Part shown: positions 41,505-54,967 of the stretch, one piece after another
Layout: every line of letters starts with the position of its first letter
How positions within the stretch are numbered: the stretch's first letter is position 1
From: Fluviicola sp.
GTDB taxonomy: Bacteria; Bacteroidota; Bacteroidia; Flavobacteriales_D; Crocinitomicaceae
Assembly: GCF_039596395.1 (NCBI RefSeq)
Contig: NZ_JBCNJT010000002.1
Location: 434,001-498,000, forward strand
Direction of reading: 5' to 3'
DNA: 64,000 nt
Notes under the pieces: generated by a model
Told to the model about the DNA's origin: nothing
Database searches by the model: none
What the model saw: only the letters and a program-made list of their open reading frames with translations
Position numbers and translations under genes: made by a program

Positions 41505-41560
41505 TCGGATCATAATCTGATACAATGTTAGATTATTTTCCCGGTTTTATGCGGAACAAA

Positions 41561-41644
41561 TTCAAAATTCAAAATTCAAAATTCAAAATTCAAAATTCAA
41601 AATTCAAAATTCAAAATTCAAAATTCAAAATTCAAAATTCAAAA
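41561..41644. repeat. Twelve perfect tandem copies of TTCAAAA
   Basis: 84 bases, period 7, no interruptions. It lies between the divergent TraB/GumN gene (start 41504) and the S23-type gene (start 41708). The reverse complement of the unit is present once at 42103-42112 (ATTTTGAATT) on the other side of the S23-type gene. Two to three copies of the same unit also occur at 48646-48673. Confidence 0.95.
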
Positions 41645-41707
41645 TTTTAATATAAACTGTTGAAGCAAAAGTCATTTTCTTTTAAATTAAATAAGAAACA
41701 TCTAAAA

Positions 41708-42070
41708 ATGACTAAAAATAAACCATTCGATATCAAAGATCGATCTTTCCTGTTTGCACTGGACTGTCTTAAACTTTGCAAAACGATTTCCAGTGAAAAC
41801 AAAGAATACATTTTGACAAAACAATTAACAAGATCGGCATCTTCTGTAGGTGCGAATATCAGAGAAGCGCAGAACTCAGGTACAAAAAAAGATTTTGTTT
41901 ATAAACTTTCAATTGCCCAAAAAGAATGTAATGAAAGTATCTATTGGATAGAATTGTTAAACGCGTTTTTGGAAATGAATTCTAAAGAAGTTATTGATTT
42001 ACAGTATGAAGCAAATGAGTTGTTGCGAATACTCAGTTCAATCATACTCCATACAAAACAAAAAATGTGA
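41708..42070 (+). CDS. Four-helix-bundle protein of the S23/IVP family, copy 1
   Basis: 120 residues from the ATG at 41708 (MTKNKPFDIKDRSFLFALD); an upstream in-frame ATG at 41660 adds a basic stretch without conservation. Family core: TRSASSVGANIREAQNSGTKKDFVYKLSIAQKECNESIYWIELL, and EANELLRILSSII. Relatives are encoded in intervening sequences of 23S rRNA genes and, as Avd, in diversity-generating retroelements, where the pentameric bundle binds nucleic acid. No rRNA gene, reverse transcriptase or variable repeat is near. Lower GC than its neighbours. About half of its residues match the copy at 53002-53376. Confidence 0.88.
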   Translation: MTKNKPFDIKDRSFLFALDCLKLCKTISSENKEYILTKQLTRSASSVGANIREAQNSGTKKDFVYKLSIAQKECNESIYWIELLNAFLEMNSKEVIDLQYEANELLRILSSIILHTKQKM

Positions 42071-42114
42071 TCAGACTAACTTTTTTGAATGCTGAATGCA
42101 TCATTTTGAATTCC

Positions 42115-47442: not shown

Positions 47443-47472
47443 AGAGCGGATTTTAGGACTTTAAGACCTCAG

Positions 47473-47523
47473 GATATCAGGACTTAATCTTGAAGTTTTC
47501 AAAATAACTTCAGTCCTGATATC
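47473..47523. repeat. 51-base hairpin between arsC and prfB
   Basis: 12-bp perfect arms GATATCAGGACT (47473-47484) and AGTCCTGATATC (47512-47523), with an inner TGAAGTT/AACTTCA pairing (47491-47497 with 47506-47512). No T-run on either strand. It may be a processed 3' end or a dispersed repeat. Confidence 0.7.
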
Positions 47524-47549
47524 TTAAAATCCTTAAGTCTTGAAGTCTG

Positions 47550-48833: not shown

Positions 48834-49211
48834 ATGAATATTCCGGCAAATTTAAAATACACAAAAGACCACGAATGGGTAAGTGTTGAAGGTGATGTTG
48901 CAACAATCGGTATTACTGATTTCGCTCAAGGTGAATTAGGAGATATCGTTTACGTTGAAATTGAAACAGTGGGCGAAACAATGGACCAGGAAGAAGTTTT
49001 CGGTTCCGTAGAGGCAGTAAAAACAGTTTCTGACTTGTTTATGCCGGTTTCCGGAGAAATCATTGAGTTTAACGAAGGTTTGGAATCGAACCCTGAGGCA
49101 GTAAACAAAGATCCTTACGGAGATGGCTGGATGATCAAAGTAAAATTGAGCAATCCTTCCGAATTGGATAGTTTATTGGATGCAGCAGGTTACCAGGCTT
49201 TGGTAGGATAA
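48834..49211 (+). CDS. gcvH: Glycine cleavage system H protein
   Basis: 125 residues from the ATG at 48834 ([20 protein letters not shown]), the standard N-terminus; a frame to 48798 overlaps the promoter. It carries the lipoyl arm between the P, T and L proteins of glycine cleavage. The lipoylated Lys is Lys63 in [16 protein letters not shown]. The C-terminal [14 protein letters not shown] is typical. Stands alone with its own promoter and terminator, as often in Bacteroidota. Confidence 0.97.
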
Positions 49212-49277: not shown

Positions 49278-49306
49278 AGTAGGGGCGAAAAATTTTCGCC
49301 CCTACT
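49278..49306. repeat. Palindromic GTAGGGGCG repeat, copy C
   Basis: Perfect 14-bp arms (AGTAGGGGCGAAAA) around one base. Located 67 bases after gcvH and 81 before the next gene. Confidence 0.8.
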
Positions 49307-49386
49307 AGTATGTTTTCGGGGCATGGTTTTTGAATTTTTCGATCCCAACAAATTTTTAATAGTACTTTCACTAAAATATTTATCTG

Positions 49387-52081: not shown

Positions 52082-52963
52082 CTAATAACTACTCGTCGCA
52101 CCTCCCACATTCTCGATCGGGTGCCAGGTCGTTTTCAGTTCCTGCAAATCGGTAATGTAATACGGATTTTCATCTGCTTCCCGGGTGAAGTCTTTTTCAT
52201 AGATAAATACGCGTTTCACGTTGCAGTCAGCACCGGATTCAATCGCCCATGCATATTCGTTGTTTCCGCCAGCATATACTACCGCATTCACATCCATGTG
52301 GCTGTGGAATTGATCTACCAATTCTTTCTCGGTTCCTGTCAGGATGTTTACTACGCCGCCAGTCAGGTCTGAGGTCGCTAAAACCTCTGCAAAAGTGATC
52401 GCACACAGGGGCAGGTTCTCCGAAGCCAGGACCACACATGCATTTCCTCCTGCAATAACCGGTAAAATAGTTGAAACCAGGCCGATCAACCCATTGGTCT
52501 GCGGAGCGATGATTCCCACCACTCCCATCGGTTCCAAAGCCGAGAAATTAAAATGACTGCTGGCCACCGGGTTCACGGAAGAGAAAACCTGCTGGTACTT
52601 GTCGCACCAGCCTGCATAATACACGCAGCGGTCGATTGCAAGTTCTACTTCCTGCTTCGCTTTTGCTTCGGAACTTCCCTGTTTCACCAATTCTTCTACA
52701 AACTGAGCTTTGCGTCCTTCCAGCATTTCGGCAATGCGGTACAGGATCTGTCCGCGGTTAAAAGCCGTTTTCTCCGACCAGGAACCAAAAGCTTTTCGCG
52801 CAGCTACCACTGCATTCCTGAAATCTTTCCGGGAAGACAGGCACATATTCGCCAAAGGCTGTCCCTTTTGATCCAGCGGAGTGTAATACCTTCCGGATTC
52901 CGTGCGCGGGAATTGTCCGCCGATGAAGATTTTGTATGTTTTTAGTATTTCCAAACGTTCCAT
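52082..52963 (-). CDS. Short aldehyde dehydrogenase-like protein lacking the catalytic part
   Basis: 293 residues from the ATG at 52963 (MERLEILKTYKIFIGGQFPR). It matches the first half of ALDH (RKAFGSWSEKTAFNRGQILYRIAEML, PMGVVGIIAPQTNGLIGLVSTILPVIAGGNACVVLASE, LTGGVVNILTG), then diverges after VVYAGGNNEYAW, where a true ALDH has FTGS. It ends without the ELGG glutamate and the GxxC cysteine that its neighbour has as Glu271 and Cys305. The frame is intact, so I read a conserved pseudoenzyme or partner subunit. Pairing of deoC, a full ALDH and a short ALDH is also known in other phyla (recollection). Confidence 0.8.
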   Translation of the reverse strand: MERLEILKTYKIFIGGQFPRTESGRYYTPLDQKGQPLANMCLSSRKDFRNAVVAARKAFGSWSEKTAFNRGQILYRIAEMLEGRKAQFVEELVKQGSSEAKAKQEVELAIDRCVYYAGWCDKYQQVFSSVNPVASSHFNFSALEPMGVVGIIAPQTNGLIGLVSTILPVIAGGNACVVLASENLPLCAITFAEVLATSDLTGGVVNILTGTEKELVDQFHSHMDVNAVVYAGGNNEYAWAIESGADCNVKRVFIYEKDFTREADENPYYITDLQELKTTWHPIENVGGATSSY

Positions 52964-52965
52964 TC

Positions 52966-52993
52966 TAATTATCAATGTTTAATTATCAATTAT
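52966..52993. repeat. Flanking repeat of S23 copy 2, left side (TAATTATCAAT x2)
   Basis: TAATTATCAAT at 52966-52976 and 52980-52990. The reverse complement occurs twice on the other side of the S23-type gene, at about 53457-53466 and 53478-53488. Confidence 0.75.
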
Positions 52994-53001
52994 TAAGTAG
53001 T

Positions 53002-53376
53002 TCAACGCTTCGTCCATTTTGAATTTTCTTTGGTCCGCAAACTAATTGTCTTAATAATTCTAAGTAGTTGATTCGCTTCATCGTGAATGGTTAAAAGATG
53101 CTCTTTTTCTTCATTCAATAATGCCATTAACAACTCTAACCAATATATACTTTCGTCACATTCTTTTTGACAGATACTTAGTTTATGAATGAAATCTGCT
53201 TTACTTTCTGCATTTCTAGCTTCTCTCATATTTGCTCCTACAGATGTAGATGATCTCACCAATTGGTCTGTCAAAATAAACTCTTTATGTCTTTCTTTTA
53301 TTCGTCTGCAATTCTTTACGGTGCTTAAGGCGAAATCGAAACTTCTTTCTCTGATGTCTTGTTTGTTAGTGATCAT
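53002..53376 (-). CDS. Four-helix-bundle protein of the S23/IVP family, copy 2
   Basis: 124 residues, MITNKQDIRERSFDFALST start. Core VRSSTSVGANMREARNAESKADFIHKLSICQKECDESIYWLELL and EANQLLRIIKTISLRTKEN. Same family as the gene at 41708-42070. It sits between two ALDH genes on their strand and is edged by AT-rich repeats in opposite orientation on its two sides. No rRNA, reverse transcriptase or variable-repeat gene is near. Confidence 0.88.
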   Translation of the reverse strand: MITNKQDIRERSFDFALSTVKNCRRIKERHKEFILTDQLVRSSTSVGANMREARNAESKADFIHKLSICQKECDESIYWLELLMALLNEEKEHLLTIHDEANQLLRIIKTISLRTKENSKWTKR

Positions 53377-53456
53377 TTTTCCCGTTTCTTATTTAATCTA
53401 CGCAAAAACATCTTCTAAAAAACAAATTATTCTTCAAAAAAATTGAAGCCTGCACC

Positions 53457-53488
53457 TTGATAATTAATCAATTAATAATTGATAATTA
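53457..53488. repeat. Flanking repeat of S23 copy 2, right side (TTGATAATTA x2)
   Basis: TTGATAATTA at 53457-53466 and ATTGATAATTA at 53478-53488; this is the reverse complement of the left-side repeat. The TAA stop of the ALDH gene (53486-53488) lies inside it. Confidence 0.75.
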
Positions 53489-54967
53489 TCTTTCTATTTT
53501 CAAATAAGCTCCCAATCCCTGCAAGCCGCCTTCTCTTCCGAATCCGCTTTCTTTGTAACCTCCGAAAGGGGAAGTCGGATCGAATTTGTTATAAGTGTTT
53601 GCCCAGATCACTCCGGCGCGCAGTTTTGTTGTCAGGTTAAAGATCCGCGATCCTTTATCGGTCCAAACTCCGGCTGCCAGTCCGTATGGTGAATTATTCG
53701 CTTTTTGGATCACCTCATCAATGGTGCGGAAAGTCTGGATAGTTAGAACCGGACCGAAAATCTCTTCCTGTGCAATTCTGCTCGACTGCGCTACATCCGT
53801 GAATAATGTCGGACGAACGAAATATCCTTTTTTCGGGATCTCGCAGGAGCTTTCGTACATGCTTGCTCCTTCGTCTTTCCCAATTTTGATGTATTTCTGA
53901 ATCGTTTCCAATTGTTCTTTGGAATTGATCGCTCCGATATCGGTATTTTTATCCAATGGGTCGCCTACATACAACGTATCCAAACGGTCTTTTAGTTTTT
54001 GAATGACTTCTTCTGCAACGGATTCCTGTACGAACAAGCGCGAACCCGCACAACACACATGGCCCTGGTTGAAGAAAATCCCGTTCACGATTCCTTCCAC
54101 AGCCTGGTCGATCGGTGCATCTTCAAAAATAATATTGGCCGATTTCCCGCCGAGTTCCAAGGTCAGTTTCTTTCCTGTTCCCGCAACGGCTTTTTGAATG
54201 ATTTTCCCAACATGGGTAGAACCTGTAAAGGCAATTTTATTGATATCGGGATGATTGACAATTGCTGCTCCGGTATCACCGTAACCCGTCAAAATATTTA
54301 CAACACCTGCCGGCAAGCCGCTTTCGTGAATAATTTCTGACAGTAGCATGGCTGTCAAAGGTGTTGTTTCTGCCGGTTTCAAAACAACCGTATTTCCTGC
54401 TGCCAAAGCAGGGGCAATTTTCCAGGCTGCCATCAAAAGCGGGAAATTCCACGGGATGATTTGTCCCGCAACACCCAAAGCGCTTACTGTTCTGTTCGGA
54501 AACGCGTATTCCAGTTTATCTGCCCAACCGGCATAATAGAAGAAATGGTTGCACGCCAGCGGAACGTCTACATCACGTGATTCGCGAATAGTTTTCCCTG
54601 CATCCAGTGTTTCAACAACCGCTAGTTCACGTGCTCTTTCCTGCATCAAACGCGCAATACGGTAAATGTACTTCCCGCGCTCTTTGGCAGACAACTTTGA
54701 CCAAACGTTTTCGTAAGCCTTACGTGCTGCTTTCACCGCTTTGTCAACATCCGCTTCGTTGGCATACGCTACTTCTGCCAGCACCTGCTCATTTGCAGGG
54801 TTAGTCGACTTGAAATATTTTTTCGAAGCCGGAGCAACAAACTTCCCGTCGATATACAGGTCGTAACGCTCTTTCAGTTTCACGTGACTGGTACTTTCCG
54901 GGCTTGGACTGTAATCCCATCCGCCGTTGAAATCGAACGTTGTTTTTTCTTTCATCTTTTTTGACAT
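53486..54967 (-). CDS. NAD(P)-dependent aldehyde dehydrogenase
   Basis: 493 residues, full length. Oxidises an aldehyde to the acid; with deoC next to it, acetaldehyde is the likely substrate (inference). NAD-binding and catalytic motifs: IIPWNFPLLMAAWKIAPALAAGN, FTGSTHVGK, LELGGKSANI with Glu271, and FFNQGHVCCAG with catalytic Cys305. C-terminal PFGGYKESGFGREGG as usual. It starts 9 bases after the deoC stop. Confidence 0.95.
   Translation of the reverse strand: MSKKMKEKTTFDFNGGWDYSPSPESTSHVKLKERYDLYIDGKFVAPASKKYFKSTNPANEQVLAEVAYANEADVDKAVKAARKAYENVWSKLSAKERGKYIYRIARLMQERARELAVVETLDAGKTIRESRDVDVPLACNHFFYYAGWADKLEYAFPNRTVSALGVAGQIIPWNFPLLMAAWKIAPALAAGNTVVLKPAETTPLTAMLLSEIIHESGLPAGVVNILTGYGDTGAAIVNHPDINKIAFTGSTHVGKIIQKAVAGTGKKLTLELGGKSANIIFEDAPIDQAVEGIVNGIFFNQGHVCCAGSRLFVQESVAEEVIQKLKDRLDTLYVGDPLDKNTDIGAINSKEQLETIQKYIKIGKDEGASMYESSCEIPKKGYFVRPTLFTDVAQSSRIAQEEIFGPVLTIQTFRTIDEVIQKANNSPYGLAAGVWTDKGSRIFNLTTKLRAGVIWANTYNKFDPTSPFGGYKESGFGREGGLQGLGAYLKIER

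Follow-up and report, generated by a model that had tools for sequence, protein, structure and literature searches.

A gene of the S23 (four-helix-bundle) family that stands between two aldehyde dehydrogenase-like (ALDH) genes in Fluviicola sp., together with the inverted repeats at its edges, is one case of an architecture that recurs around S23 genes, which makes it a broader phenomenon than the initial annotation of the block had described. Read across the genomes compared, the architecture suggests a type of mobile hairpin that has drawn little notice. Among close relatives, one and the same spacer is found with the unit present, absent, internally deleted, or of another S23 lineage with other arms, and S23 genes that are close relatives but occupy different sites often resemble each other in their arms; movement of the unit, i.e. 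transposition, is what we infer to be the cause. S23 genes are widespread and unexplained, and an orphan gene annotated as "four helix bundle" within an operon may mark an inserted element instead of a member of the pathway.

The S23 unit of the window

The features of the window, i.e. the whole stretch of 64,000 nucleotides analysed, are collected in Table 1. The S23 gene has the two ALDH-like genes as its neighbours, with deoC further upstream, and its arms (33 bp at 53456-53488 and 32 bp at 52966-52997, the latter ending 2 bp before the ALDH1 start codon at 52961-52963) together span the region from the ALDH2 stop to the ALDH1 start. Both the S23-type gene between edge repeats of opposite orientation and the overlap of the right repeat with the ALDH stop codon had been proposed in the initial annotation, and both hold (Table 1). 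The repeat had further been counted twice on each side: the left does have two exact copies of TAATTATCAAT (52966-52976 and 52980-52990, plus strand), but the right has one exact reverse complement (53478-53488) and one copy with a single mismatch (53456-53466). By itself this 11-mer is not rare, with 6 matches at up to one mismatch in the window against 2.57 expected, and as many in 3 of 100 shuffles; the arms are variants of a 7-bp unit (AATTATC, AATTATT, AATTGAT).

Table 1. Coordinates of the S23 units, their neighbours and an S23-free hairpin in the window.
Feature	Position	Strand	Remarks
Copy 1, left array, ~12 AATTCAA units	41559..41646	+	by reading
Copy 1, S23 gene	41708..42070	+	TIGR02436 E 5.2e-27; PF05635
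Copy 1, right arm, inverted AATTCAA/AATGATG-like units	42083..42112	-	score 12.5, rank 15/64, weak
S23-free hairpin, 8-bp units (AGGATTTT dialect)	47449..47547	.	arms 47449-47487 and 47509-47547; fills spacer between two ORFs
ALDH1-like gene, downstream neighbour of S23 gene	52082..52963	-	ATG from sequence; ORF list starts at TTG, 52975
3' arm of unit (S23 sense)	52966..52997	+	inverted array of degenerate heptamers; pairs with 53456-53488
S23 / four-helix-bundle gene	53002..53376	-	124 aa; PF05635 E 1.5e-20; TIGR02436 E 1.6e-26; PDB 2rld E 1.1e-21
5' leader motif TTAAATAAGAAA	53385..53396	-	also precedes copy 1; similar in other ALDH-site copies; by reading
5' arm of unit, TAATTATCAATTATTAATTGATTAATTATCAAG	53456..53488	-	overlaps ALDH2 stop codon 53486-53488
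ALDH2 gene, upstream neighbour of S23 gene	53486..54967	-	profile match

Arms were scored by comparing the left 250 bp of an ORF with the reverse complement of its right 250 bp, over 57 window ORFs that include both S23 genes. The gene at 53002-53376 comes out at the top with 19 (median 8.5, 95th percentile 12.5), and by local score its arm pair (52966-52997 with 53456-53488) ranks third among 64 right flanks. A score of at least 14 is reached by one further ORF, 48834-49211 (gcvH-like by eye), which has GGGGCGAAAAATTTTCGCC-type repeats on either side. The initial annotation had considered that such repeats might be equally common at S23-free positions; with 2 of 57 ORFs bearing such arms, one of them the S23 gene, they proved rare at the other genes of the window. 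In the minimum-energy RNA fold the ends of the unit pair (z -2.2, 3 of 100 shuffles as good), and the centroid structure pairs them only partly; arm scores and fold together show that the terminal inverted repeats can pair as a stem. The other S23 gene of the window, described earlier as copy 1 of the same arrangement, does show a similar layout, but a weaker one (Table 1).

Concerning protein content, the profile searches run on the S23 product gave only PF05635 and TIGR02436 above cut-offs and found no nuclease, recombinase or other catalytic domain. The S23 ORF is the sole family match in the unit, and no transposase was found in it, an 85-aa ORF on the opposite strand having lain outside the search.

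One spacer in fourteen genomes

The genus comparison comprised 14 genomes (G000-G013), the window's own included. At the ALDH site an S23 gene is present in seven (one with a TAA stop), a relic that retains both arms and both gene ends with the middle deleted in one (G011), and nothing of the kind in six, namely G007, which is nearly empty, and G001, G005, G008, G009 and G013, which have a C-rich repeat (by eye). The S23 copies at this site are of at least four kinds, each with its own arms: AATTATC-type in G000, G006, G012 and the G011 relic, AATTGAA/AATGTAA in G003 and G010, and one further type each in G002 and G004. The block behaves as a discrete unit, as had been supposed, being missing in 6 of the 14 genomes, a relic in one, and represented by different S23 lineages and arms at a single site; the empty-site comparison suggested for it thus showed that the gene is not constant here among relatives. 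That the neighbours would otherwise abut is roughly right, the ALDH match ends lying 22-162 bp apart in the six S23-free genomes, and the neighbouring frames are kept, in agreement with the claim of insertion without breakage of reading frames.

Within a copy the left and right arms match, and between S23 lineages they differ. A fixed repeat at the edges, as first envisaged, is consequently ruled out; the edges are lineage-specific inverted heptamer arrays, and S23-free hairpins of the same make lie in other spacers.

Another spacer, site 3, lies between two fatty-acid genes (by eye) and is filled in G005 and only a 29-bp spacer in G012, with flank pieces 97-98% identical; in G011 it holds S23 and arms of a lineage found elsewhere between thiS and thiC (by eye), and in five other species another lineage. 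The L055 unit is present in G005, and G012 has a GGGGCGAAAAATTTTTCGCCCC hairpin at the corresponding place. Several S23 sites are common to many species, and related S23 units also occur at different sites. No target site duplication was seen by eye in the filled and empty pairs, whose junctions are blurred, and the comparative data caught neither a strain pair differing by the unit alone nor an excision product. As a side observation, two units (L001, L046) lie between thiS- and thiC-like genes (by eye), and both loci contain a TPP riboswitch.

Arms and proteins were compared over 35 loci with an arm score of 13 or more and a protein of 100 aa or more. Different-site pairs with 60-80% protein identity have a mean arm similarity of 0.50 (12 pairs), against 0.23-0.25 below 60% identity, with L037/L039 as an exception (66% identity, arm similarity 0.23); over all different-site pairs arm and protein similarity are weakly correlated (rho 0.10, 23 of 2000 permutations as high). 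Within a given identity band, pairs from one site resemble each other slightly more than pairs from different sites.

Inverted heptamer arrays around S23 genes

For each S23 locus, the left flank was matched against the reverse-complemented right flank of that locus and, as swapped pairs, against those of all the other loci. In the genus, where 64 of 67 matches were used (three are second pieces of genes already counted), own pairs have a median score of 14.5 against 9.0 for swapped pairs (p 1e-27), with 35/64 at 14 or more and 29/64 below. Twelve of these loci, belonging to the MFDFEKL-type lineage and fragments, are armless (0/12 at 14), and they were dropped from the genus autocorrelation and the periodic-segment counts after their armlessness had been seen. 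In the phylum set, whose 30 loci are the best-scoring of the phylum search and not a random draw, 11/30 own pairs reach 14 against 21/870 swapped. The cross-phylum set of named genomes (76 of the best 80 loci, according to flank length, from at least 582) gives 47/76 against 100/5700, with 31/49 for Bacteroidota and 16/27 for the others. Edge repeats therefore do recur around other S23 genes, a point that the initial annotation had raised, in the genus, phylum and cross-phylum sets. Of 296 genomes drawn from the window's phylum, 235 have a match to PF05635.

Autocorrelation of both left and right flanks peaks at 7 and 14 bases, the lag-7 values being 1.22 and 1.33 in the genus without the 12 armless rows (controls 1.01), 1.25 and 1.25 in the phylum set, and 1.45 and 1.30 outside Bacteroidota. 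Lag-7 segments, with a median of 33 bp, were found in 127/316 flanks compared with 5/252 segments taken 540-700 bp away; in 79 of these 127 the unit is repeated four or five times. Each arm is thus an array of degenerate 7-8-bp units, usually 4-5 of them, inverted with respect to its partner, and the features of the heptamer class (tandem degenerate units, about four of them, convergent pairs) are found in S23-unit arms as well as in S23-free hairpins. Unit words in the genus include AATTACG, AAGACTN, AGGATTTT, GTTCAAAT, AATTGAC and AATAGTG, and beyond it GGGAATC (Xanthomonas, L200), GGAACTC (Geobacter), AGTAGTC, CGTGAAC and others.

A plasmid search with one query gave S23 in two cyanobacterial records. 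These Nostocales-plasmid genes stand between operon-like genes annotated as ribonucleotide reductase subunits and as secretion proteins, and have arms of GGGAGTA (Nostoc plasmid, L231) and, weakly, TTAGCTG (Calothrix plasmid, L230); one query against phages gave no S23 match. An rRNA location of the genus units was rejected, since no rRNA match was found in the 20 loci scanned of the 64, and the window copy is flanked by protein genes.

It should be noted that the MFDFEKL/MFEF-type lineage without heptamer arms (L058, L059, L060, L070, L072, L074, L081, L089, L069; related L005, L075, L077) has features of its own. Copies at places that are otherwise unrelated have some 90-300 bp of flanking sequence in common (e.g. 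93% over 148 bp, 99% over 92 bp), three matches lie inside about 8.5 kb of contig G002:C19, and L060 contains a tRNA; this lineage looks like a cassette array.

Hairpins without S23

Hairpins of the same kind also stand alone. At the 47.4-kb spacer of the window, read at 11 of the 13 loci matched and unmatched in G005, the 8-mer dialect (Table 1) is found in G000, G012, G009, G013 and G001, an AAGACT dialect in G006, G011 and G002, and an AATT dialect in G004, with no hairpin seen in G007 and G008; at least four changes are needed. Twelve S23-free places that were read are compact hairpins or arrays in gene spacers. The L254 spacer has AAGACT in G005 and G002 and AATTATC in G012 and G000; the L253 spacer has AAGACT in G005 and G006, AATTCAA in G000, an unrelated palindrome in G012 and a short spacer in G002. 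One spacer may hence hold, in close relatives, another dialect, another palindrome or almost nothing.

The AATTNNN array pattern occurs in 13/14 genomes, with 0 to 86 instances per strand and genome against 0-1 for the reversed pattern (overlapping matches counted). There are 91 AAGACT clusters in the genus, four of them adjoining S23, and 13 of the S23-free clusters form hairpins, all 13 facing inward as S23 units do; three pairs among these look orthologous, which leaves about 10 independent cases. In G004 the reversed control pattern of AAGACT exceeds the true one (22 vs 6). A de novo scan of 464 kb of G000 gave 7 hairpins, and 400 kb of G003 gave 13, of which two are linked to S23 and three belong to a seemingly unrelated CCCACGAATT type; in 400 kb each of G007 and G013 there was a single hairpin, that of G007 being no heptamer array by eye. 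Lags 10 and 11 together gave 1, 0, 0 and 0 in G000, G003, G007 and G013. In an earlier scan with other thresholds over G000, G003 and the window, lag 7 gave 4, 12 and 0, lag 8 gave 0, 2 and 1, lag 9 gave 4, 0 and 0, equal to lag 7 in G000, and lags 5, 6, 10 and 11 gave none.

No significant tie was seen between the dialects of S23-free hairpins and the S23 lineages of their genome, with agreement in 9 of 19 hairpins, three of which look like another repeat, against 6.2 expected (534 of 5000 as high). AAGACT counts do not agree with S23 presence, G013, G012 and G002 having 24, 11 and 13 without the AAGACT S23 lineage. Counts of GTTCAAAN are high where its S23 lineage exists (G000 177, G005 76, G013 131), with mismatches in G012, which has 190 and in which the lineage was not found, and in G011, which has 3 though an S23 fragment is present; these genomes are related.

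Some further repeats were met in the same spacers. Window positions 49278-49307, L096, L097, L113, L114, L117 and the ALDH site of five genomes (G001, G005, G008, G009 and G013) hold other recurrent repeats (the GGGGCGAAAAATTTTTCGCCCC hairpin and a C-rich CTCCCCCTCGGTCCCCCTCC type), which apparently alternate with heptamer hairpins. L256, L257 and L258 have long perfect arrays of the 8-mer GTTCAAAT with a degenerate inverted partner, which looks like one freshly expanded arm facing an old one. In L249 (G005) and its orthologs L261 (G012) and L267 (G000), heptamer or octamer arms enclose a terminator-like hairpin (by eye), so the loop can hold things besides S23.

Proposed spread of the unit and alternatives

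We give about an even chance to the reading that the block is a stem-loop element, akin to rRNA intervening sequences (IVS) and REPINs, that carries S23 in its loop, perhaps replaces resident stem-loops, and whose S23 protein likely binds the arms. Such an element would consist of two inward arms, each mostly of 4-5 degenerate 7-8-bp units, with the gene between them. It would spread by structure-guided replacement of stem-loops in spacers, with no target duplication seen, so that neighbouring frames survive. S23 proteins form pentameric rings, and there are five chains in PDB 2rld, the closest structure; the protein probably binds to the unit arrays in single-stranded form, DNA or RNA, and guides their annealing, perhaps with one heptamer per subunit (a guess from the 4-5-unit arms), and host or trans-acting enzymes would do the cutting and joining. 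The arms may also pair as RNA, as in rRNA intervening sequences, and this may limit the harm to the host operon.

Replacement predicts that orthologous sites lacking S23 hold another hairpin. This is so, at a score of at least 12, in 17/35 S23-less sites, called from flank distances or by reading (only some were read), against 28/116 length-matched spacers (p 0.004, with rows that are orthologs and not independent). Since the rows are not independent and site 3 gives 0/6 and the ALDH site 1/6, resident stem-loops can be named as targets only tentatively. The failure of this test at the two best-studied sites weighs the stem-loop reading down and raises ordinary homologous recombination of the flanking genes, by which spacers would be exchanged, the S23 units and hairpins being old and not transposing at present. 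This alternative, which we consider unlikely but by no means negligible, would account for different dialects at exactly equal spacers, for the lack of target duplications and for several sites being common to many species. At the ALDH site, however, the flanks give no sign of the exchange: G002 and G006 are both 84% identical to G000 in the flanks, yet their S23 DNA is 65% and 85% identical, respectively, so the G002 unit does not look like a resident copy that has changed at the usual rate. Related S23 units are found at different sites, moreover, and for their first insertion some other process is required.

It is improbable that the gene is a beneficial accessory gene passed on vertically and lost many times, with arms that are slippage-prone microsatellites kept complementary by RNA structure. 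The seven ALDH-site proteins do form one side of a branch (83/78) in a tree of 55 of the 64 loci (those of 100 aa or more), and the unit ends do pair in the minimum-energy fold, though not in full in the centroid. Against this, a smaller S23 tree does not resolve the ALDH-site group into a single clade. In the flanking-gene tree G002 groups with G000, G012 and G005 (97/99), whereas in the S23 tree it falls outside G000, G006 and G012, and forcing the host grouping G000+G012+G002 on the S23 tree is rejected (p-AU 0.00076; the group was picked with both trees known, and G002 is on a long branch). Vertical inheritance would further imply 5 changes for S23 presence and 7 for dialect states on the flanking-gene tree, and dialects change at an S23-free site as well.

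Movement of the hairpins by an enzyme encoded elsewhere, either a Y1 (RAYT) transposase or a reverse transcriptase, with S23 as a passenger, is very improbable. The organisation does resemble that of REPINs as described in part of PMC3116915, and Y1 matches occur in 11/14 genomes; G002, G004 and G005 have none (G004 and G005 are 83-84% complete). However, lag-7 arms were found at 0/17 Y1 loci (17 of 23 matches tested; 3/17 have other inverted repeats) versus 27/64 S23 loci, and RVT_1 is unmatched in 7/14 genomes, five of them at least 99% complete. A RAYT-type mover was rejected on the lack of heptamer arms at the tested Y1 loci, S23 itself not being Y1, and a reverse transcriptase partner on the lack of RVT_1 matches in half of the genomes.

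The least probable alternative is a host element for mRNA processing or regulation, with a stem cut by RNase III that insulates operon genes and S23 as regulator: the unit ends do form a stem, units lie between operon genes, and a role in translational regulation is suggested for Beggiatoaceae heptamer repeats in a passage of PMC4679880, but the patchy presence, the relic, the stop codons, and the occurrence of units in either orientation relative to their neighbours (by eye, raw ORF calls) speak against it.

Comparison with known systems

The comparison links S23 to inverted heptamer arrays, the separate pieces being already in print. Degenerate, mostly intergenic heptameric repeats are described, in passages of PMC4692102, for Xanthomonas (GGGAATC) and Nostoc (GGGGA(C/T)T); the Xanthomonas repeats mostly have four units, and convergent inverted pairs number 70 and 75 in the two genomes concerned, and the Nostoc-type genome has few pairs, with none on plasmids. 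Excerpts of PMC4679880 report TAACTGA heptamers of Beggiatoaceae and heptamer repeats in cyanobacteria and five Bacteroidetes, and one of PMC2700814 heptanucleotide elements of Geobacter. The Xanthomonas pairs, as far as those passages go, resemble the S23-unit arms in their degenerate 7-mers, about four units and the same convergent polarity. Among the S23 loci compared here, a Xanthomonas S23 gene has GGGAATC-type arms (L200) and the Nostoc plasmid gene has GGGAGTA arms (L231). In the Nostoc trnL intron, a section of PMC4476775 describes a P6b stem of complementary 7-nt repeat classes with several independent class replacements, its origin stated as not known; this is like our units in having heptamer stems and a dialect-type swap at one place, and unlike them in being located in a group I intron. 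The main texts of these four papers (PMC4692102, PMC4679880, PMC2700814, PMC4476775), as far as available, do not mention S23, nor "four helix" in PMC4692102, PMC2700814 and PMC4476775 or "helix bundle" in PMC4679880. An earlier link of S23 to flanking or heptamer repeats was not found in the open-access literature, the search having left most subscription papers outside its scope. A figure legend of a CRISPR survey (PMC10910872, in part) lists "23S rRNA IVP" among protein domains, and repeat arrays near S23 could perhaps play a part in that listing.

Insertion sequences and MITEs differ from the units in that the terminal repeat sequence here is not conserved, arms differ by lineage and no transposase is matched. 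Stem-loop-replacing transposition of IS1272, in which a resident inverted repeat is replaced with no target duplication (described in part of PMC5678879), is like the swapping at fixed spacers seen here without visible target duplication; IS1272, by that partial account, has its own transposase and 16-bp ends, whereas the S23 unit has no transposase match. Diversity-generating retroelement (DGR) Avd proteins are unlike the window copy, which has no reverse transcriptase beside it, RVT_1 being unmatched in 7/14 genomes.

Intervening sequences of 23S rRNA are, in a passage of PMC4990558, S23 ORFs in a loop closed by terminal inverted repeats, termed selfish, with mobility among the hypotheses and their origin given as open; part of PMC11270868 reports 23S_rRNA_IVP ORFs in rRNA insertions of CPR bacteria. 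The likeness lies in an S23-family ORF within terminal inverted repeats that can close a stem, and the difference in the location in spacers of protein genes, the degenerate 7-8-mer arrays with dialects, and the S23-free relatives. REPIN/RAYT systems consist of dispersed inverted hairpins beside few gene-bearing loci, in several classes (passages of PMC3116915). They are matched here by dispersed inverted-doublet hairpins, namely the 13 inward S23-free AAGACT hairpins and those of the de novo scan; on the same partial source, REPs have a conserved sequence and go together with a tyrosine transposase, unlike the tandem heptamers and the protein without a known catalytic domain found here.

The link between S23 and heptamers offers a single testable answer to the puzzle of the S23 genes and to where rRNA intervening sequences and the heptamer stems of Nostoc come from. 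In its widest form, which we put forward tentatively and think somewhat doubtful, S23 units would belong, as the members that carry a gene, to a class of mobile elements found across many phyla and consisting of inverted-heptamer stem-loops read by an S23 ring in lineage-specific dialects. The heptamer repeats described for Xanthomonas, Nostoc, Beggiatoaceae and Geobacter, the Nostoc trnL stems and the rRNA intervening sequences would then be members or derivatives. Among the systems compared, the S23 hairpin unit is a variant close to intervening sequences and to REPINs that fails one defining feature of each.
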